The position numbers and the translations under genes are program-made. DNA of 46,855 nt from the NCBI GenBank assembly GCA_013334435.1, contig JAAXXP010000008.1, positions 1 to 46,855 on the forward strand, written 5' to 3'. This stretch comes from Chlorobiaceae bacterium (GTDB lineage: Bacteria; Bacteroidota; Chlorobiia; Chlorobiales; Chlorobiaceae). How positions within the stretch are numbered: the first letter of the stretch is position 1; the number at the start of each line of letters is the position of its first letter. The notes beneath the pieces were generated by a model that did not search any database, was not told where the DNA came from, and was given only the letters and a program-made list of their open reading frames with translations. Shown here piece by piece: positions 1 to 9,082 of the stretch.

Positions 1-236
1 GCAAGAATCGTTCAGGTCGAAAAACGGGAGAAACGCAGGTTCGATCTTTGCGCAGCGGGGAACGGACGATTGAAATACAAGCAGGGTGAAGCGGTTCTCG
101 ATAGGCATGAAGGGTAGCCTGTAAGCAAGATCTCGATGCCGATGCTCTCAGCCTTGCGATTTGGTCCGATATTCTCTATACCTCCGTGTTTATCGAGCGT
201 CCCGGCATGCCAGGGTCGGGAATTCAAGGCGTTGCC

Positions 237-596
237 ATGAACCCCGATTTCAGCGTTGTTCGTCGATACGGCCAGGCGCAGGATTCGGCGTATGCCGGAT
301 CAATGCGCCGACTCGATGCCATCGCTTCTTTTCTTTTTCCGCTGCAGATCACTACGGCAGCAGCCGGCTCATCATACCGCCATCTGCAGGTAGTTCCGGG
401 CAGCGATCTCAAGGCCGTTCTTGCCGGCAGCGTGTTCGCCCTTGTTGTTTTTATCCGCCTTGCCCGTTCAGGAACAGGGAAGAGGGCGTGGCTATGGAGC
501 GATTATCTCTTTGTCGCCGCGTTCGGATTCGTCGCCGTTGCGGTGATGTTTCTGTCTGAAGCCGATCATCAGATGCGACTGATGCGTAACGGATGA
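237..596 (+). CDS. Possible small membrane protein, function unknown
   Basis: This frame is open for about 119 codons and I do not recognise the family. Seen: two hydrophobic stretches in the C-terminal half (around [19 protein letters not shown] and [18 protein letters not shown]), compatible with two membrane helices, and codon choices similar to the neighbouring genes. I chose the ATG at 237; an upstream ATG at 186 is also open. The stop codon overlaps an ATG at 593 in the frame of the receptor gene downstream. The 236 bases before it show nothing recognisable. It could be a non-coding open frame, so confidence is modest. Confidence 0.4.
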
Positions 597-709
597 AAAA
601 GATGTTTGTTGCCGATACCGCGCGACTGCACCTGCAGAGTGCAACTCAATCCATTATCGTGGCTGCCGACCGGACTTCCGGAGTCTGCTTCTTTCAGGGT
701 CAATACGTT

Positions 710-2536
710 ATGAACCATAATCGAAAATTGGGAAAAAAAGTCTGCCGCACCCTCATGGCGCTCGCCGTCGCAGGATTTGCCGGCGAGGCGCAGGCTGCGA
801 CGGAGTCGCCGGTGCTTGACAAGATCGTTGTAAGCGCAACCAAGACGCCGCATACGCTCGGCGACGTGCCGGTTGATGCGGAGGTCATCACGAGGGAAGA
901 GCTGCTGAAAAGAAACGTTCAGTCCGCCCAGGATGCGCTGGATCAGACAACAGGCCTGCTTGTCGGGAAAACCTCAAGCGGGTGGGGCTCCAAGGGAACG
1001 GTCAGGGTTTACGGGCTCAGCGCGAAATATACCCTTGTGCTGGTGGACGGCCAGAGGCTGCTGGGCGGCCATCAGAATGCGATCGACCTGCAGCAGATAT
1101 CCATCGACATGATCGAGCGTATCGAAATCCTCAAAGGCCCCGCATCGGCGCTTTATGGCAGCGATGCCGTTGGCGGGGTGGTCAATATCATTACCCGGAA
1201 AGGGGCGGATAAACCCGAGTTTTCAGGATCGCTGGCCATGGGTTCTCGGGGAACGGCGGTGGGCTCCCTGTCCGGCGGCGCCGGTTCCGAAAATATCAGG
1301 ACAAGGTTCAGCTATACCTACCGTGAGTCGGACGGCGTCGACGAGGAGCTGGACAGCTACAGCGAACATATACTGCAGGGAACGGTATCGCTGAAACTGG
1401 CCGAAAAGGCCGAGTTCACCCTCAAGCCCTACTATTCGTTTCAGGATATGCCCGATCAGGATACAAAACAGGAGCGATACGGCATCAACGCGATGCTGGA
1501 CTGGGCGCCTGACGACCTCTCATCGGTCAAGCTTCGCGGGTCGTTTTTCGATTTCAGTTACAAGACCGACACGGATGATACCGTGCTGGACAACTACGAA
1601 TTCGAACTGCTCTATTCGCGAATGCTGTTCGAGAGCCACCTCATGACCGCGGGATACGAGTTCTGGAACGAAAGGCGCGACTATTATGCCTCTGCCGGTA
1701 CGAACAGCAAGATAGACCAGACCCTCAACAGCTTCTATCTGCAGGACGAGATCGATCTGTCTCCTGTAGTTCTGGTGCTCGGAGCTCGTCTCGATTCCCA
1801 TGAACGGTGGGGAGAGGAGATCAATCCGAAAGCAAGCGTGATGTTCAAGGCTACCGATGACCTCAAATTCCGGGCTTCGGTCGGCCGGGCATTCAAGGCG
1901 CCGTCGCTGTTGAGCCTCTATGACGAATGGATGATGGGGAGCATTACGGTGCATCCGAACCCCGATCTGAAACCCGAAAAATCTCTCGGTTACCAGTTGG
2001 GGGTCGAATACGCATTCAGTCCCGATATCGTCGCCAAGGCGAGCTGGTTCAGGAACGACCTTGAAGATATGATCAAAAGTACGGTAACGAGGGTTTCCGG
2101 AAGGATGCACATGTATTATGAGAACGTAGACCAGGCGATGACCCAGGGGGTAGAGCTGAATCTCGATGCACGGATCAGCGACTGCGTGTCGGCCAAGGTC
2201 GGCTATACCTGGCTCGATACGGAAGACAAACTTACCGGAAAGGAGCTGACCTACGAACCGGAAAGCAAATTCGTTTCCGGCCTGAATTTCACGTTCTGTC
2301 CCGCTTCCCTGACGCTCGGTCTTGAAGCTTCCTATACGGGAGCGCGGTTTACCGATGCGGCCAATACGGAAAAACTGGACGGTTTCTGGGTATGCAACGC
2401 AACGCTGACAAAAAAGTTTACCGAGCAGACCGAGGCGTTTATCAGGATCGACAACCTATTCGGAGAAGAGAACATCACCGACGAATATGATATTGACGGG
2501 ACCGAATTTCTCGCTGGGTTGAGGGTGAAGATCTGA
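710..2536 (+). CDS. TonB-dependent outer-membrane receptor (BtuB/FepA/CirA-like)
   Basis: Outer-membrane gated porin that would import a chelated metal or tetrapyrrole, energised by TonB-ExbB-ExbD. The protein is 608 residues from the ATG at 710, chosen because it begins a clean signal peptide ([20 protein letters not shown], cleavage after AQA near residue 29). The frame stays open upstream to 593, but that stretch does not look like protein. A TonB-box-like [10 protein letters not shown] follows the signal peptide. The plug domain shows [20 protein letters not shown] and [20 protein letters not shown], both classic receptor signatures, and the rest is beta-barrel sequence ending in AGLRVKI. 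It lies tail to tail with a lipoprotein chelatase gene and a few kilobases from exbB-exbD-tonB, which suggests an iron, heme or cobalamin-type substrate. The true ligand cannot be read from sequence. Confidence 0.93.
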
Positions 2537-2560
2537 CAGGTGCTTCCTCCCGGATTCGTA

Positions 2561-2601
2561 AGCCCTGACGTGCTTTTGCGCTTCGTCAGGGCTTTTTTTT
2601 T
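2561..2601 (+). terminator. Rho-independent terminator of the receptor gene
   Basis: Ten-base arms AGCCCTGACG and CGTCAGGGCT enclose a 13-base loop and are followed by a run of nine T on the plus strand. It sits 24 bases after the receptor stop codon and just before the end of the convergent chelatase gene. Confidence 0.9.
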
Positions 2602-2608
2602 GATAGCG

Positions 2609-3571
2609 CTACGGCAGGCGGGTTCCTGCCCGGATGGCCGCCGCCTGTTTTTGGGCCGTGCTCACGATCCATGCTTCGAGTTCCGTATCAGGCAGGATCG
2701 CGTCAGGCTTGTAACGCACGCGCCGCCTGTTGTCGGGAACTGAAGCGACCCCGCCACCGATGATATCGATCTGGAACTTTTCGCTGAACGAGACGAGCAG
2801 CGGAATCACGATAGCCCGCTGATGTCTTTTCAGGGTGCGGGTTATGGCCGAAGTCGTGCTGTCGGGGCTGTAGTGCGCGATATGGCCGCACCATGCAGTG
2901 GTATGCCCGGCGAATCCGGCATCACGGCAGACCTGAAGGCCCGTTGTGGCAAACAGCTCCGTCCATATATCGGGAAATTCGCTCGATCCGTAGCCGACAA
3001 GCACCAGAGCCTCTTCGTCCGGATTGGTGGAGAGGGCTTTTGCCCGTCGGAGTACGTTCTGACGAAGCAGGCTGGAAAAACCGAGCGGACCGGCCAGGTA
3101 CGTCCGTGCTTTCGGGACGTAGCGTTCAATGCCTTCAAGCCGCATCTGTTCGAGTGTAGCGGGATTCTCCTTTTTCCCTATGATGGTCGGGATATCGTCG
3201 AACACATGAGTGCCTGCGGTGAGGAAGACCGGTATGACGATGATGTCGGTATAGCCATTCCTGTCAAGTTCTCTGAGCGATTTCGCTATGGATGGTTCCG
3301 CGTGCTCCATGAAGGCGGTCGCAAGCGTGTCGATACCTTTGAGGGCGAGGATGCGGAAAGATACCCGTTGTTCCAGCTCGAGCAGCTGCTTTTTCCACTC
3401 CCCGGAGCGCGATCCGTGGTTGACGAGCAGAAGTGCGGTTTTTTTTGTTTTCGAATCGCCATGTTCCGTGCCCGCAGGTGGATTTTTGCCGTCTGTGCAG
3501 GCAACCAGGAGGAGCAGGGTCAGGAACTGTATGCATCGGGAGAAGCTGAAATTGCAGGGCATTGCGTTCAT
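2609..3571 (-). CDS. CbiX/CbiK-family chelatase-like lipoprotein (paralogue 2)
   Basis: Member of the class II chelatase family that inserts Co2+ or Fe2+ into sirohydrochlorin-type rings, but built as an exported lipoprotein of about 320 residues. The start at 3571 gives a signal peptide ending in LLLLVAC, a lipobox with the lipidated Cys at residue 25; the frame is open further upstream into the PepSY gene. Family marks are LLVNHGSR (the catalytic-type His), AFMEHAEPSIAKSL, and IPVFLTAGTHVFDDIP with a second His. The C-terminal half repeats the fold and contains WCGHIAHYSPDSTTSAI. A terminator lies between this gene and the PepSY gene, so it may be expressed less than, or separately from, the genes upstream. 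Known analogue: the periplasmic CbiK of Desulfovibrio vulgaris, reported to bind heme. A role in heme or tetrapyrrole handling here is inference. Confidence 0.85.
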   Translation of the reverse strand: MNAMPCNFSFSRCIQFLTLLLLVACTDGKNPPAGTEHGDSKTKKTALLLVNHGSRSGEWKKQLLELEQRVSFRILALKGIDTLATAFMEHAEPSIAKSLRELDRNGYTDIIVIPVFLTAGTHVFDDIPTIIGKKENPATLEQMRLEGIERYVPKARTYLAGPLGFSSLLRQNVLRRAKALSTNPDEEALVLVGYGSSEFPDIWTELFATTGLQVCRDAGFAGHTTAWCGHIAHYSPDSTTSAITRTLKRHQRAIVIPLLVSFSEKFQIDIIGGGVASVPDNRRRVRYKPDAILPDTELEAWIVSTAQKQAAAIRAGTRLP

Positions 3572-3580
3572 GGTGTTGTG

Positions 3581-3619
3581 AAAAAAACTGCCGGGCTTTT
3601 TTATTTGTATGCCCGGCAG
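3581..3619 (-). terminator. Terminator between PepSY gene and second chelatase gene
   Basis: On the minus strand, arms CTGCCGGGC and GCCCGGCAG (9 bp, 14-base loop) are followed by seven T. It lies in the 91-base gap inside an otherwise co-directional trio, so it may attenuate rather than end transcription. Confidence 0.75.
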
Positions 3620-3662
3620 GATGGGTGGATGGAGCCAAGCCAAAAGGAAAGCGGAAGCATCC

Positions 3663-4226
3663 TCAGAATTGCTGCGCAATGACGGCGATGAGGGGAGGCA
3701 TGGCCCCGGCGGCAAGCAGCCATTTGCCTCTGCCCTTCAGGCCATTGTTTCCCCGCAGCATGAACATGCCCGTTACGGTAATGGCTATCAGCATGAGGGC
3801 GAAGAGGTCCGATGCCCATTTCCACCATTCGACGCTGTTGCGATGCAGCACATTGACCTGATAGAAAAGCGGTCGCCGCGATACCTTCTCGTAGGTCCCC
3901 AAGCCGTTCGTCAGGTCTATCTGCATGGTGGCATTCCTGTAGTAGATTTTTATCTGACTGTCCGAAGGGAAGTCGTACAGCCGGTACCCTTTTTCTCCGG
4001 CCAGAAAGCCGAAGGCTTCGACCCGATCCGGGGTTATCTCGTTTTTACCGTACTTCCGATCGAGTTCGATCCGTTTTTTTTCGATGATGAAATCCGGATT
4101 CCAGTCGTCCAGATGGTTCAGCGCAAGTCCTGAAAGGCTGTACGCTATGATCAGCGCGGCAAAGAAATATCCCAGATCGCGGTGCAGGATGTTGTTGATC
4201 TTTCGCGCCTTGTCAAATTTTTTCAT
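3663..4226 (-). CDS. PepSY-associated transmembrane protein
   Basis: A 187-residue inner-membrane protein with predicted helices at about 19-37, 137-157 and 168-184 and a periplasmic PepSY-like segment between the first two. Conserved-looking histidines sit beside the helices (HRDLGY at 15, NHLDDW at 38, NVLHRN at 128), a pattern found in PepSY-TM proteins tied to ferric-siderophore or heme reduction. RBS AGAGGT lies six bases before the ATG. It starts 15 bases after the first chelatase gene, so the two probably share a transcript. I infer a role in reducing or releasing metal delivered by the TonB receptor; the electron donor and substrate are unknown. Confidence 0.8.
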
Positions 4227-4241
4227 TGGTACCTCTGCCGC

Positions 4242-5234
4242 TTATTTGCCTGTTGATGATGTGATTGCCGCAGCGGCTGTTTTTACCGAGCTTACGACCC
4301 ATGCTTCAATCGAGGGGTCCGGCAGGAGCGCGTCGGGTTTGTAAAGAATCCTGTTCTTCCCGGCTGCGGCTTTTTCGAGTCCCGAGCCGATAATCCGTAC
4401 CTGGAAGTTTTCATCGCGTGCTACGAGTACCGGAATGACGAGGGCATACGGTTTCGTTTTCAGTATCCGCTTTACGGCGGCAGCCGTCGAGTCCGGGCGG
4501 TATCGTACGATGTGGCCGCACCATCCGTAAGTACAGGTATCGATGCCGGTCTCCTTTTTTACCGACGCTCCCACCTTGTCGAACAGGGCGCTCCACTCCT
4601 TTTCATAGGCTTCGTCGCCGTATCCGATAAGGACGAGCCCCTCTTCCGAAGGGTTTTTCGACAGAGCTTTGACTCGTCTGACGACGTTCTGCTGCAGGGC
4701 GCTGCCGAAATCGAGCAGCGGTGTCATATGTATTGCCGCCTCGGGTTTGTATCGTTCGATTTTTTCGAGTTTCAGTGTTTCCATGGAGCGGGGGTCTTCC
4801 TTCTGACCCATGATGGTGGGCAGGTCATCGAAGGAGTGGGGACTGACGGTCAGGAACAGAGGGACGACAATGATATCCGAATATCCTTCCCGGTCGAACT
4901 CTTTCAGGCGCGTCGCGATCGATGGTTCGCTGTATTCCATGAAAGCGGTCTTGATTCCGGAAATTTCTCCGTCGGCCGCGATCTTCGCCGTGACGGACCT
5001 TTCGAGATCGAAAAGGGCCTCGCGCCAGGTTTTTGACGGGGAACCGTGACTGACCAGGAGCACGCCGGTTTTTTTCGATGCATTTGCCGCAGCGGCCGGC
5101 TGGCTTTTCCTGTCAGAAGAGCAGGCAGCAAGTGTTATGGCAAGAAGAAGAATGGAGAGCGGGATGCGCACAAGTGAAGAGAGGGGTATCATGTTTGCGT
5201 TACGCTGCATGACAGGGGTTTTCGGCTGTTTCAT
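4242..5234 (-). CDS. CbiX/CbiK-family chelatase-like lipoprotein (paralogue 1)
   Basis: A 330-residue exported relative of sirohydrochlorin cobalto/ferro-chelatases. The N-terminus carries a signal sequence ending in [10 protein letters not shown], with lipobox Cys38, followed by an Ala/Ser-rich linker. Family marks are [12 protein letters not shown] with the catalytic-type His, [14 protein letters not shown], and [16 protein letters not shown] with the second conserved His. The C-terminal half contains [19 protein letters not shown], matching the paralogue at 2609-3571 nearly position by position. ATGs at 5210 and 5192 are alternative starts; none has a strong RBS. It is the first gene of a minus-strand operon with the PepSY protein and follows a region with the shared TAGACAAAAT element. 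An extracytoplasmic chelatase fits metal or heme handling at the envelope rather than siroheme or cobalamin synthesis. That is inference. Confidence 0.88.
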
Positions 5235-5343
5235 CTCTTTTTTGTTTTCGTCTATTGATAATTCGACAATATAAAAATAAAATCATTTTATCGGCAATGG
5301 GCCTGCGGTTTACGAACATCATCGGTGAGGTTTTTTTATTTTG

Positions 5344-5356
5344 ATTTTGTCTAAAT
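5344..5356. promoter_or_regulatory. Shared iron-locus element, copy A
   Basis: Plus strand reads ATTTTGTCTAAAT, and its complement ATTTAGACAAAAT is identical to the copy before the DtxR gene. It lies 110 bases before the first chelatase gene in reverse orientation, and about 90 bases before a plus-strand terminator in the same orientation the element has at the other two sites. Confidence 0.5.
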
Positions 5357-5364
5357 TAATATTA

Positions 5365-5475
5365 GATTGCTTGCAGACAGTTGAAAAAGGTTGTGTTGTT
5401 CTCCTGTTTTGTTCTCCGTTTCAGGTTGTGCTGTTCTTTCAGAAAGCCCCCGCGTGCCACGGGGGCTTTTTTTTT
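5365..5475 (+). ncRNA. Candidate small RNA in the iron locus
   Basis: Between the shared element at 5344-5356 and a strong plus-strand terminator there are about 90 bases with no ATG and no plausible gene on the plus strand. The segment is U- and G-rich and holds TTGTTCTCC twice (5396-5404 and 5409-5417), plus a related CTGTTCTTTC at 5431-5440. The CTCC cores could pair with GGAG of Shine-Dalgarno sites, as in many trans-acting small RNAs. The transcript start is a guess. This is inferred from layout only; no plus-strand protein gene follows that could otherwise own the terminator. Confidence 0.35.
5443..5475 (+). terminator. Strong terminator with no upstream protein gene
   Basis: Arms AAAGCCCCCG and CGGGGGCTTT (10 bp, 7-base loop) lead into nine T on the plus strand. 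The minus-strand side has only a short T run, so it is directional. It is the main reason for proposing a plus-strand small RNA here. Confidence 0.85.
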
Positions 5476-5476
5476 G

Positions 5477-5661
5477 TCCGGAATGAAGCCCGGTCAGCCA
5501 GACTGCTGATTTGCTGAACGCCGGAAAGGATTCCGGAGCGGGAAACAGAGTTGCTGACAGTCCGGCAGATTCTGATCCGCAGTCGTGAGGCAGCAGCGCT
5601 CCAGGGCTCGGGGACGGTGTTTTTCTGAAATGACCGGGATGAAAACGTGGAGTAGGGGGGC
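5477..5661. other. Intergenic stretch without recognisable gene
   Basis: I see no convincing ORF, tRNA or riboswitch. Short inverted repeats such as GCCGGAAAGGATTCCGG occur. I checked for a cobalamin riboswitch because of the neighbouring genes and did not find its conserved core. Confidence 0.5.
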
Positions 5662-5714
5662 ACAGCCGCATAAAAAAACCGGAAAGGGATTTTCCGGTTT
5701 TTTTATGCGGCTGT
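5662..5714 (-). terminator. Very long perfect hairpin terminator after the DUF3793 gene
   Basis: Two perfectly complementary 24-base arms (5662-5685 and 5691-5714) enclose a five-base loop GGGAT. The inner part, CCGGAAA paired with TTTCCGG followed by seven T, works as an intrinsic terminator on the minus strand. Because the arms contain A7 and T7 it could also act on the plus strand. The outer arm includes the stop codon and last codons of the DUF3793 gene. Confidence 0.85.
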
Positions 5715-6314
5715 TATGTATTGCGAAGCCAGTACGCGTGCTTTTTCGTACCGCTGCTTTCTTTTTATGGAGGGTTCGGGATCACCGAATATTCTCCAGC
5801 CGCAGCTTCCGCTGCAGGGATCGGCGCTGATGCCCATGAAGCCCCATACATCCTTGAGCGGATAGCCGAGAGCGATGCCTATTTCATGAGGAATGGAGCC
5901 CGATGCGTGCCAGCGTTCCGCCACTTCAGCAAGAAATAAGGCGCTGTCGAGTCCGAACGGGTATTTCAGGACGCAATGCAGAATCTTTTTCGATGCTGCC
6001 GCAATACGCCGGTCTACGGCCGCGGTCCGGAAAAGTATGATTTTCAGCGAGTGTCCGTTATCGTAAAGCAGGCGATGGTCAAGATTCCAGGAACGGCAGA
6101 ATGACCCGGTGATCTCCATGCAGGCCCGGGCGTTCAATCCGAACATGTCTTTTTTCATGATGATCAGTTCACCGGGTTTTTTTGCGAACAGGACGCCCGC
6201 CGCATGGACGAATATCCATTTTTCCAGCAAGGAGTGCTCCTCAGGGGTATGGCCGAGCTTCTGTTTCCAGCGCTCCAGATTCTGCTGATCTGCTTTTGAA
6301 AAACAGTGCGTCAT
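5703..6314 (-). CDS. DUF3793 family protein
   Basis: A 203-residue cytoplasmic protein of unknown function. The family is recognised by the motif PHEIGIALGYPLKDVWGFMG at about 141-160, the usual DUF3793 signature, and by the C-terminal GWRIFGDPEPSIKR. The start ATG overlaps the stop of the DtxR-type regulator (ATGA), so the two are translationally coupled and share the regulator's promoter and its TAGACAAAAT element. From memory, DUF3793 members are common in anaerobes near iron-transport or flavodoxin genes, which would fit the context, but no activity is established here. Its stop codon lies inside a 53-base hairpin terminator. Confidence 0.82.
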   Translation of the reverse strand: MTHCFSKADQQNLERWKQKLGHTPEEHSLLEKWIFVHAAGVLFAKKPGELIIMKKDMFGLNARACMEITGSFCRSWNLDHRLLYDNGHSLKIILFRTAAVDRRIAAASKKILHCVLKYPFGLDSALFLAEVAERWHASGSIPHEIGIALGYPLKDVWGFMGISADPCSGSCGWRIFGDPEPSIKRKQRYEKARVLASQYITAA

Positions 6315-7051
6315 GGTTTGCGGATTGTTTTGGTCAAGGCGCGCCTTGTCCGGAGCGCACAGTTTTTTTCTCTGTCGATCTCCGTCTCGGCATGGCCGTT
6401 GCCGTTCACGGTATCGATCAGTGAGGCCATCGAAACCGAGAGCGGAATGATGCTCTGCTTTACGGCAATCCGGATAGGTCCGTTGAAGGGAGCCTTGTCG
6501 ATTATCCGGCAGGGCGTTCCGGGAACCAGCCCCATATCGCTGATATATTTCAGGAGTTCCGGATCGGTTGTCTGCAATGCGGCTATGGTTACGGTTTTGC
6601 CTGGCGCCGTTTCGGAGAGCGATGAAAGGGCTCTCTGTTTTATTCTTCCTTCGCGACCCGGAATGGCGTGGCCGTGAGGGTCGTGTTCCGGAAAGCCGAG
6701 CATCCTGTCCAGCGCGTCGGCCAGCCTTTCCGATATGACATGCTCAAGTCTGCACGCCTCGTCATGAAGCTCATGTATTCCGTAACCGGCGATCTGGAAG
6801 AGGAACGATTCGATCAGCCGTCTTTTCCGGAGAATTTTCCCCGCCGTGATTTTTCCTTTGTCGCTCAGGGTTACCTGTTCCCGCCACTCATGAACCAGAA
6901 ACCCTTCACTGGTCAGATGTTTTACCTTTTCTGAAACCGTCGACACGCTGTGTCCCATTGCAGCGGCGATTTCGCTGATCGAAGCATGGGTATGTTTTTC
7001 GGTTAGACGGAATATCGTCTGTATGTACATTTCACTGGATTCGCTCGGCAT
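6311..7051 (-). CDS. DtxR/IdeR-type metalloregulator fused to a FeoA (SH3-like) domain
   Basis: A 246-residue metal-dependent repressor. Residues 1-65 form the winged-helix DNA-binding domain (SISEIAAAMGHSVSTVSEKV), 66-140 the dimerisation and metal domain, and about 150-222 a FeoA-like SH3 domain. The primary metal ligands of DtxR (Met10, Cys102, Glu105, His106) map to Met8, Cys100, Glu103 and His104 in EACRLEHVISE. A Cys at this position is typical of Fe(II)-responsive rather than Mn(II)-responsive members. At the ancillary site, Glu83 and His98 equivalents are present (Glu81, His96), but the His79 equivalent appears to be Arg77. The gene is coupled by ATGA to the DUF3793 gene and preceded by a copy of the TAGACAAAAT element, suggesting autoregulation. 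It is the obvious candidate regulator of the locus; the binding site is inferred. Confidence 0.92.
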   Translation of the reverse strand: MPSESSEMYIQTIFRLTEKHTHASISEIAAAMGHSVSTVSEKVKHLTSEGFLVHEWREQVTLSDKGKITAGKILRKRRLIESFLFQIAGYGIHELHDEACRLEHVISERLADALDRMLGFPEHDPHGHAIPGREGRIKQRALSSLSETAPGKTVTIAALQTTDPELLKYISDMGLVPGTPCRIIDKAPFNGPIRIAVKQSIIPLSVSMASLIDTVNGNGHAETEIDREKNCALRTRRALTKTIRKP

Positions 7052-7127
7052 ACGGCTTCCGTTACTCGATGTGCTGGTTTCTTTACCGGTTTCTCTTTTC
7101 TGTATCAGTAATGTACCATATGTATTT

Positions 7128-7140
7128 ATTTAGACAAAAT
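7128..7140. promoter_or_regulatory. Shared iron-locus element, copy B
   Basis: ATTTAGACAAAAT, 77 bases before the DtxR-type gene. The minus strand reads ATTTTGTCTAAAT toward the gene. Flanks are very A/T-rich. Either an operator of the regulator or a -35-like promoter part (TTGTCT) overlapped by it. Confidence 0.55.
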
Positions 7141-7178
7141 ATAAATTCAATACATTGCGATTTTTCCTGTTTTTTGTT

Positions 7179-7835
7179 TCAAAGGATTCTGTAATGGATC
7201 GGAACGTCGATGCTGAGGGGTTCGAGACCGTATTCGGCAGGAGGCGGGAAGGGCTGGGCTCTCCTGACTGCTTCAATCGCGGCCTTGTCGAGAAGGGTGT
7301 ATCCTGATGATCTTACCAGACTCGAAGTCCTGACTTCGCCTTCGGGGCCGATGGTAATCCTTACAACGGCGCCGCCTTCCTGACGCATGTCGCGTGCAAA
7401 CGGAGGGTAGTGTTTTTTTTCCTGGATGCGGCTTCGTACAATCGAGAGATATCTTCCTGACTGCGGGGCAGGAGTTGCCTGCGGCGGCCCGGAAGAGGCT
7501 GTGGCCGCCGCAGACTCCTGCCGGGTGACCGGAGGAGAGTCATCCGAAGAAGGAGGCGCAGGTTTTTCAGAAATGCCGACCCGTCCGTCGGGACTGTATT
7601 TCTTTTTCTTTTTTGCCGGAGCCGTTTCCGTCCGGCACTCCCGGGTTTCGTTTTTTTTGGCGGATTCCGGTTTTATATCGGTCTTTCCGGTTTCCGCCGT
7701 CAGGGCGGTGAAGGTGATATGCGTCGTTACCGGTTCGGGTTCTTGATCCCTCCTTGCAGCCAGGGGCAGGAGCAGGACCGAATGAAAAAGAATCGAAACC
7801 GCAAATACTTTCCGCTGCAGTTTTCCGGGTTTCAT
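7179..7835 (-). CDS. tonB: TonB energy-transducing protein
   Basis: A 218-residue protein that links the ExbB-ExbD motor to outer-membrane receptors. It has a short cytoplasmic start, one membrane helix (VFAVSILFHSVLLLPLA, about 9-25), a Lys/Pro-rich periplasmic spacer (PAKKKKKYSPDG; PPQATPAPQ) and a C-terminal TonB domain from about 130. That domain includes YPPFARDMRQEGGAVVRITI and VRSSGYTLLDKAAIEAVRRA. Its start overlaps the exbD stop (ATGA), so exbB-exbD-tonB form a tightly coupled operon. It most likely serves the receptor at 710-2536, though other receptors in the genome may share it. Confidence 0.93.
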   Translation of the reverse strand: MKPGKLQRKVFAVSILFHSVLLLPLAARRDQEPEPVTTHITFTALTAETGKTDIKPESAKKNETRECRTETAPAKKKKKYSPDGRVGISEKPAPPSSDDSPPVTRQESAAATASSGPPQATPAPQSGRYLSIVRSRIQEKKHYPPFARDMRQEGGAVVRITIGPEGEVRTSSLVRSSGYTLLDKAAIEAVRRAQPFPPPAEYGLEPLSIDVPIHYRIL

Positions 7836-8239
7836 GGCCGCTCTTTTTTTTCGGTGACGACGGAGACTCCTGTTGCGCCAGCCTGTCTGGTCCGGTCCAT
7901 GACATCGATGACCAGTCCGAAGTTCACGGTCTTGTCGGCCAGCAGGCAGACCGTCCTGTCGGATCGGCCATCCAGCATCTTTTTTATGTCGAAACCAAGC
8001 TGAACGGCGCTCACAGGCCTGTTGTTCAGAAAGGTCAGTCCATCCCTGTTTATGCTGACGGTTATGTCGGGTTCTTCCTTCACGATGGCCGATGCCGATG
8101 CGGGAAGATCGACCGGAAGCACCGGTTTGGCGTAAATCGAGGTCAGGAGAAAAAAAATCAGCAACTGAAAGACGATATCGATCATCGGGGTCAGATCGAA
8201 GTGTTTTTTCTCGGGAAGATGTTCTCCAAAATCTATCAT
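7832..8239 (-). CDS. exbD: ExbD biopolymer transport protein
   Basis: A 135-residue inner-membrane protein with one helix (about 21-37) and a periplasmic domain. The helix carries the proton-pathway aspartate at position 21 in LTPMIDIVFQLLIFFLL, the hallmark of ExbD/TolR. The periplasmic part ends in the usual LVIDVMDRTRQAGATGVSVV. It overlaps exbB upstream and tonB downstream by four bases each, which implies translational coupling. With ExbB it uses the proton gradient to energise TonB. Confidence 0.94.
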   Translation of the reverse strand: MIDFGEHLPEKKHFDLTPMIDIVFQLLIFFLLTSIYAKPVLPVDLPASASAIVKEEPDITVSINRDGLTFLNNRPVSAVQLGFDIKKMLDGRSDRTVCLLADKTVNFGLVIDVMDRTRQAGATGVSVVTEKKERP

Positions 8240-8841
8240 CTCGTTTCTCCGAGGTGTTTTATGGCTTCCGTACCATAGTATTTCATTTGCCAGGCGAACG
8301 ATTGAACCTTGTTTTCAAGAAGATGATGCGCAACCATGGCGGGTATGGCTATGGCCATGCCGGCTACGGTCGTAATGAGTGCTTCCCATATCCCACCGGC
8401 AAGCATCGACGGGTCAATGGCGCTTTTTGCCGACGAAACCTCCTGAAAAGCCTCGACGAGGCCAAGAACGGTTCCGAGGAGCCCGAGCAGAGGCGCTATT
8501 CTGCCGATGAGTTCGAGGATGTGAAGATTCTGGTTGAGGCGCTTGAGTTCTCTGGAGCCTCGAAGCGAGATAACCTCCTCGAGCTGATCCTTCGACTGTC
8601 CGGCATGGCGGAGGCCCTCCTCGAGAATTCCGGCCACCGGTCCGGGAGATGATTCGGCAACTGCAAGTGCGCCGGCCGTATCCCCTTTTTCAAGAAGGTC
8701 GTGAATCTTTGCCGGATTTTCCGGCTTCTTTCCGGCAAGGAAAAAACTGATGGTTCGTTCGAGAGCGTAGGCGAAAGCTGCTATTGAGCAGAAGAGAAGG
8801 GGGTACATTACCGGGCCGCCCTTGAAAAAAAGATCAATCAT
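8236..8841 (-). CDS. exbB: ExbB proton-channel protein (MotA/TolQ/ExbB family)
   Basis: A 201-residue inner-membrane protein with three helices at about 10-34, 112-133 and 150-173. The core shows RIAPLLGLLGTVLGLVEAF and LAGGIWEALITTVAGMAIAI, the conserved pair of helices in ExbB/TolQ proteins. It is first in the exbB-exbD-tonB operon. It is divergent from the DUF456 gene, and the 241-base gap between them contains the third copy of the TAGACAAAAT element 71 bases upstream. Co-regulation with the DtxR-type gene and the chelatase operon is inferred from that element. Confidence 0.94.
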   Translation of the reverse strand: MIDLFFKGGPVMYPLLFCSIAAFAYALERTISFFLAGKKPENPAKIHDLLEKGDTAGALAVAESSPGPVAGILEEGLRHAGQSKDQLEEVISLRGSRELKRLNQNLHILELIGRIAPLLGLLGTVLGLVEAFQEVSSAKSAIDPSMLAGGIWEALITTVAGMAIAIPAMVAHHLLENKVQSFAWQMKYYGTEAIKHLGETR

Positions 8842-8911
8842 AAATAAAAGGATGGATGGGAACGTGTGTTGATTTCACTCCATGAGGCATCATGAATTTA
8901 AGAATATTATT

Positions 8912-8924
8912 AAATAGACAAAAT
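8912..8924. promoter_or_regulatory. Shared iron-locus element, copy C
   Basis: AAATAGACAAAAT, differing from copies A and B at two of 13 bases, 71 bases before exbB and in the same orientation relative to the gene as copy B. Downstream flank AAAAATAAGATAC resembles the copy B flank ATAAATTCAATAC. Confidence 0.5.
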
Positions 8925-9082
8925 AAAAATAAGATACCGTTCATTTTTTTCTGCAAGTCTGTCTTGCATTTATCGTCATGTTAAGGCAGCTTCATCACTG
9001 GTTGCCGCCGCAGGCTTGCCGGATCTTTTTTCGCGGTGAATCGTCAGGTGCGGAGCAGAAAAGGGTATAAACCGGATAACCT

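Follow-up and report, generated by a model that had tools for sequence, protein, structure and literature searches.

The window, i.e., the whole 46,855-nucleotide stretch that was analyzed (contig JAAXXP010000008.1 of the Chlorobiaceae assembly GCA_013334435.1), contains an iron locus at approximately 1-8925 (Table 1). The locus encloses two genes of class II chelatase-like lipoproteins, cbiX-A and cbiX-B, with the membrane protein gene pepSY between them. These three genes are co-directional, and the intergenic gaps are 15 and 91 bp. The DtxR-FeoA and DUF3793 genes are placed between cbiX-A and tonB. The start of CbiX-B was assigned to a conserved ATG at 3571, and the listed ORF reaching 3715 begins at a TTG further upstream. 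Two FeoB genes for Fe(II) import were found in the genome.

Table 1. Genes and candidate regulatory sites of the iron locus in the window.
Feature	Position	Strand	Remark
DUF4857-protein homologue, C-terminal part, 5' of receptor	129-593	(+)	68% identity to L012 protein residues 526-679
TonB-dependent receptor	593-2536	(+)	ligand-specific family models all below cut-off
CbiX-B, diverged paralogue of CbiX-A, 320 aa	2609-3571	(-)	lipobox LVAC, Cys25
Small PepSY_TM-like protein (PF16357), 187 aa, predicted membrane redox partner	3663-4226	(-)	
CbiX-A, class II chelatase-like lipoprotein, 330 aa	4242-5234	(-)	lipobox LAAC, Cys38
Candidate operator ATTTAGACAAAAT 5' of cbiX-A	5344-5356	(-)	
DUF3793 (PF12672) protein	5703-6314	(-)	
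DtxR-type metal-dependent repressor fused to FeoA domain	6311-7051	(-)	likely locus regulator
Candidate operator ATTTAGACAAAAT 5' of dtxR-feoA	7128-7140	(+)	
TonB	7179-7835	(-)	
ExbD	7832-8239	(-)	assigned by reading; same gene order in L014/L015/L103/L104 homologues
ExbB	8236-8841	(-)	assigned by reading; same gene order in homologues
Weaker operator-like site, 2 mismatches, 5' of exbB	8913-8924	(+)	exact copy at same place in L014

The TonB receptor scored below the cut-off of every ligand-specific NCBIfam model, e.g., siderophore (219 against 223.5) and haem (176 against 317), and the receptors of relatives were likewise below every ligand-model cut-off of NCBIfam. At window 1-593, the C-terminal part of the DUF4857 protein was found alone, with stops in frame before base 129. 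It is a truncated gene or a contig-end artefact. On another contig of the same genome, C36 (L071:1-438), a C-terminal fragment of a CobN-type chelatase is followed by a second TonB receptor gene. The fragment is distinct from the three BchH-like copies.

The first-pass annotation of this DNA had described two lipobox CbiX paralogues that keep catalytic-type histidines and share a WCGHI motif, bracketing a PepSY-TM protein next to a TonB receptor and exbBD-tonB (8841-7179, minus strand). This description held, and the pair belongs to a larger iron locus. CbiX-A and CbiX-B both passed the Pfam CbiX model (PF01903), with 46 and 61 bits at a cut-off of 22. Residues H63, E100, and H133 (CbiX-A numbering) were invariant across 39 homologues and form a catalytic-type His-Glu-His metal site. 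In the profile alignment, they are aligned with the metal-site positions of CfbA. The metal site of CfbA is made up of His9/Glu42/His75, and that of SirB of His10/Glu43/His76 (PMC11301274). In the second half of the protein, W238-C239-G240-H241 were also invariant in the 39 homologues, but the following I was not. Among the proteins sampled from the phylum, neither canonical CbiX nor the other CbiX-like proteins have WCGH. Chelatase activity is predicted for both proteins.

The AlphaFold model of CbiX-A was confident (pLDDT 87.8). Its best PDB matches were SirB sirohydrochlorin chelatases, followed by Desulfovibrio CbiK-P, ferrochelatases, and P. gingivalis FetB. When the modeled secondary structure is read together with the alignment, the conserved positions come just after core-strand ends in both halves of the protein, and the two sets of residues would line one cleft. 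The changes specific to CbiX-B include a His replacing Tyr101, beside the catalytic Glu. A distant CbiX-like group of approximately 320 aa was observed in Bacteroidota (L079, L081, L082, L084, L086, L088, and L094). The members of it that were read, i.e., L079, L081, L082, and L084, have Sec-type N-termini, and none of them has WCGH or a lipobox.

The protein encoded between the two chelatase-like genes passed PF16357 (49 bits, cut-off 27), and its PF03929 score was below the cut-off. Three membrane-side histidines, H15, H38, and H128, were invariant in 28 sequences. PepSY_TM proteins of known function contain haem b and reduce ferrisiderophores (PMC13038864; PMC11334425). Like FoxB and other PepSY_TM ferric reductases, the PepSY protein of the window belongs to the PepSY_TM superfamily and carries invariant His, but it is half-size and has three predicted helices. 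A dimer would be required to rebuild two haem sites. The monomer model was of moderate quality (pTM 0.53), and with this model no significant match was obtained in the PDB fold search, FoxB not being among the top matches.

The first-pass annotation had proposed to look for this neighbourhood in other genomes, and its CbiX/PepSY part does recur there: a PepSY gene lies directly 3' of CbiX in 29 of the 35 loci with readable downstream DNA. In L042 (Thiotrichales, 6028-8838) and L043 (6007-8316), a NosR-like membrane protein with FMN_bind/Fer4_5 domains replaces PepSY, and in L042 this FMN-binding/ferredoxin protein is again placed between two CbiX copies. A membrane redox protein adjoins CbiX in every readable exported case.

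The CbiX lipoprotein gene has a patchy distribution: within the family it was found in 4 of 61 genomes, and within the phylum in 8 of 296. Relatives at 45-81% identity were found in Bacteroidota, Chlorobiota, Ignavibacteriota, Calditrichota, Chloroflexota, Planctomycetota, Pseudomonadota, and others. The mature domains of CbiX-A and CbiX-B are 50% identical, and the A-PepSY-B arrangement is kept in two Chlorobiaceae genera; the pair is therefore real, far beyond chance. In the second genus (L104 and L015, one genome region), exbB-exbD-tonB is followed by cbiX-A-pepSY-cbiX-B on a single strand. In the tree, the A copies and the B copies fall into two separate Chlorobiaceae clades, both with full support, so that a widespread lipoprotein-CbiX/PepSY module has been doubled specifically in Chlorobiaceae. 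CbiX-B diverged faster than CbiX-A. Most relatives have one CbiX with PepSY, so the two-lipoprotein layout is not the essence of the system.

Four members of the family (L033, L035, L039, and L045) have neither a signal peptide nor a membrane partner. They form one clade, so the four cases represent a single evolutionary event. This WCGH-bearing clade occurs in Chloroflexota and Ignavibacteriota, is apparently cytoplasmic, and is found without iron genes; in L035, the signal-less CbiX gene is followed by a gene of an FAD-dependent oxidoreductase. A search for the module on plasmids gave three records, two of which are Persicobacter megaplasmids with full-length relatives. These records do not count as evidence of mobility.

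The signal peptides could be spurious and the proteins ordinary cytoplasmic chelatases of siroheme or B12 synthesis, which was the alternative named in the first-pass annotation. It would suit this explanation that CbiX-A and CbiX-B are the sole CbiX-family genes of the genome. However, CbiD was not found in the window's genome, which is 99.6% complete, and 57 of the 61 family genomes lack the gene. In two Chloroherpetonaceae genomes (G129 and G065), a separate canonical CbiX coexists with the lipoprotein CbiX, and lipoprotein-type signals recur across the family. For these reasons a B12 or housekeeping siroheme role was rejected, and the explanation is hardly credible.

In Bacteroidota and Chloroherpetonaceae, the module was found beside genes of HmuY haem-binding proteins. 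HmuY-cluster genes adjoin it in 13 of 37 loci and also in G065, and the usual order is HmuY-like, CbiX, PepSY, (DUF6686), TonB receptor, and HmuY. Of these adjoining proteins, 19 of 22 passed Pfam HmuY and 9 have a type IX secretion (T9SS) tail. HmuY-like proteins with such tails adjoin CbiX in Bacteroidota, e.g., at L018:4718-5962, and the tails suggest haem capture at the cell surface. In G129, G065, and G070, the sole HmuY gene of the genome adjoins CbiX. With these three genomes as positive controls, no HmuY was detected in the window's genome or in five other module-bearing Chlorobiaceae genomes, so that haem is assigned to the window by homology only. Some loci have the module without a nearby TonB receptor or HmuY. 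The adjacency in relatives is indirect evidence that the ligand is haem or a close tetrapyrrole. No protein of more than 1,000 aa, i.e., of CobN size, was found beside HmuY in the 13 loci.

Another explanation is that the CbiX fold binds a siderophore or other ferric chelate instead of a tetrapyrrole, and that the iron is released from it by reduction. Class II chelatases act on tetrapyrroles, and the recurrent partner in relatives is HmuY; both points argue against it. The best score of the receptor was nevertheless that of the siderophore model, and known PepSY_TM enzymes reduce ferrisiderophores (PMC13038864). We consider such a chelate to be a very unlikely substrate.

A 13-base sequence, ATTTAGACAAAAT, precedes cbiX-A, dtxR-feoA, exbB, or TonB-receptor genes. 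With one mismatch or less, the window and five related loci together contain nine sites, whereas dinucleotide shuffles gave 0.33; this comparison is descriptive, because the sequence was spotted by eye before counting. The sequence is a candidate operator of the DtxR family, conserved in the related loci.

Taken together, an extracytoplasmic, reductase-coupled dechelatase system for haem or a related iron tetrapyrrole, feeding Fe(II) to FeoB, is predicted at this locus, and we regard this prediction as somewhat probable. The TonB receptor, powered by ExbB-ExbD-TonB, would carry the metallo-tetrapyrrole across the outer membrane. The CbiX lipoproteins would hold it in the inter-domain cleft, where the metal would face H63/E100/H133 as well as the WCGH of the C-domain. 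PepSY would then pass membrane electrons in a one-electron step and reduce Fe(III) to Fe(II), and the chelatase, running in reverse, would extract and free the Fe(II) at H63/E100/H133. FeoB would import the freed Fe(II), and the DtxR-FeoA repressor may control the locus. The sequences show the protein families, the lipoboxes, the conserved residues and module, the HmuY linkage in relatives, the shared operator-like sites, and feoB. What CbiX acts on, that it runs in reverse, that PepSY donates the electrons, in which order the steps occur, and that CbiX-A and CbiX-B have different tasks are all predictions. The first-pass annotation had suggested that the duplicated, membrane-tethered pair strips or inserts metal in a tetrapyrrole outside the cytoplasm. 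The lipoprotein signals, the metal site, and the iron/TonB setting agree with the extracytoplasmic metal chemistry, but duplication is not essential to it.

Metal insertion is the natural reaction of class II chelatases. This would be consistent with insertion of Mn, Co, Fe, or Zn into a porphyrin at the cell surface, similar to the Mn-protoporphyrin of FetB; FetB-dependent MnPPIX has been reported, as summarised in PMC13402209. Removal is favoured by the tight pairing with a redox membrane protein, by the iron-uptake genes around the pair, and by the DtxR-FeoA regulator, and insertion is considered improbable.

The main rival to dechelation is a carrier without catalysis. The CbiX lipoproteins would then be haemophore-like haem or metal carriers, or iron chaperones, in a relay from the receptor to the inner membrane, and PepSY would be a ferric reductase. 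Lipoproteins with HmuY neighbours fit such a relay, and a non-catalytic haem or metal carrier is indistinguishable from a dechelatase by sequence. In addition, the periplasmic CbiK-P of Desulfovibrio is termed a haem-binding protein in a title cited in PMC11301274, and IhtB is termed a putative haem-binding lipoprotein (PMC10913741). However, all 39 sequences, from several phyla, keep the full His-Glu-His site, which a simple carrier would not need. The carrier explanation is taken to be rather unlikely, and the reductase-coupled dechelatase is preferred.

How anaerobes remove iron from haem without oxygen-dependent haem oxygenases is a question that HmuS has only lately begun to answer. The conserved exported CbiX with a redox protein, often also with HmuY, offers a testable second mechanism where HmuY has no adjacent HmuS. 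In a broader sense, it is a nearly even prospect that the family represents a third class of anaerobic haem dechelatase that arose by convergence. This class would consist of a CbiX-derived, WCGH-marked extracytoplasmic lipoprotein with an interchangeable membrane electron donor, i.e., PepSY or the FMN-binding/ferredoxin NosR-like protein. In many Bacteroidota it would stand next to HmuY in place of the CobN-type HmuS, and it would have spread to, and been duplicated in, green sulfur bacteria. The proposed mechanism also offers a function for an unnamed family of at least Bacteroidota, Chlorobiota, Calditrichota, Planctomycetota, and Pseudomonadota. The linkage suggests that exported chelatases have a dedicated electron donor. 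In the open-access literature, no paper on a CbiX lipoprotein with a PepSY/HmuY module was found; subscription papers may exist.

Among known systems, IhtB/FetB of P. gingivalis, a CbiK-like haem-related lipoprotein (PMC10913741; PDB 9b86), is the closest functional precedent. It is an extracytoplasmic lipoprotein that has the fold of class II chelatases and belongs to a TonB-linked haem/iron system, it shares the lipobox signal peptide with the window pair (Cys38 and Cys25), and iron removal from haem has been proposed for it as for the pair. Its sequence differs in being on the CbiK side (profile against 9b86, E = 0.11; TM 0.48/0.58), and the published Iht system includes an ABC transporter instead of PepSY (PMC10913741). 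Membership in FetB/CbiK was rejected, as the best PF06180 score was 21.8 bits against a cut-off of 26.2, together with the same profile E value. CbiK of Desulfovibrio vulgaris, which the first-pass annotation gave as the only extracytoplasmic precedent, is thus one of at least two. This CbiK-P (PDB 2xvx/2xvz) is a class II chelatase outside the cytoplasm that has been reported to bind haem, and its fold is similar (TM 0.53/0.64). In profile comparison, it matched the window CbiX only at E = 0.52. To our knowledge, CbiK-P has no PepSY or HmuY linkage.

HmuS of the Bacteroides hmu operon was missing from the precedents of the first-pass annotation. It de-chelates haem to PPIX and Fe(II), needs a reductant, and shares its operon with HmuY; this is the reaction proposed for the window CbiX. 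In the 13 HmuY loci, CbiX occupies the expected place of HmuS. However, HmuS is a class I enzyme of the CobN/ChlH type (PMC12583661), whereas the window CbiX is of class II. Membership in HmuS/CobN was rejected: neither CbiX has the PF02514 domain, and the PF02514 genes of the genome are elsewhere. The sirohydrochlorin chelatases SirB, CbiX, and CfbA have the fold and the His-Glu-His metal site in common with the window CbiX, but they are cytoplasmic and have neither signal peptide nor WCGH. The B. thetaiotaomicron locus BT3625-33 encodes DUF4857, an ABC ATPase, PepSY-TM, and a TonB receptor, and is induced 37-128-fold without iron (PMC10434189). DUF4857 and a TonB receptor also occur in L012/L014 and in the window, whereas no CbiX is listed for BT3625-33. 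Exported chelatases themselves have precedents; the new feature would be that a class II chelatase exported for haem-iron acquisition has a dedicated redox partner.
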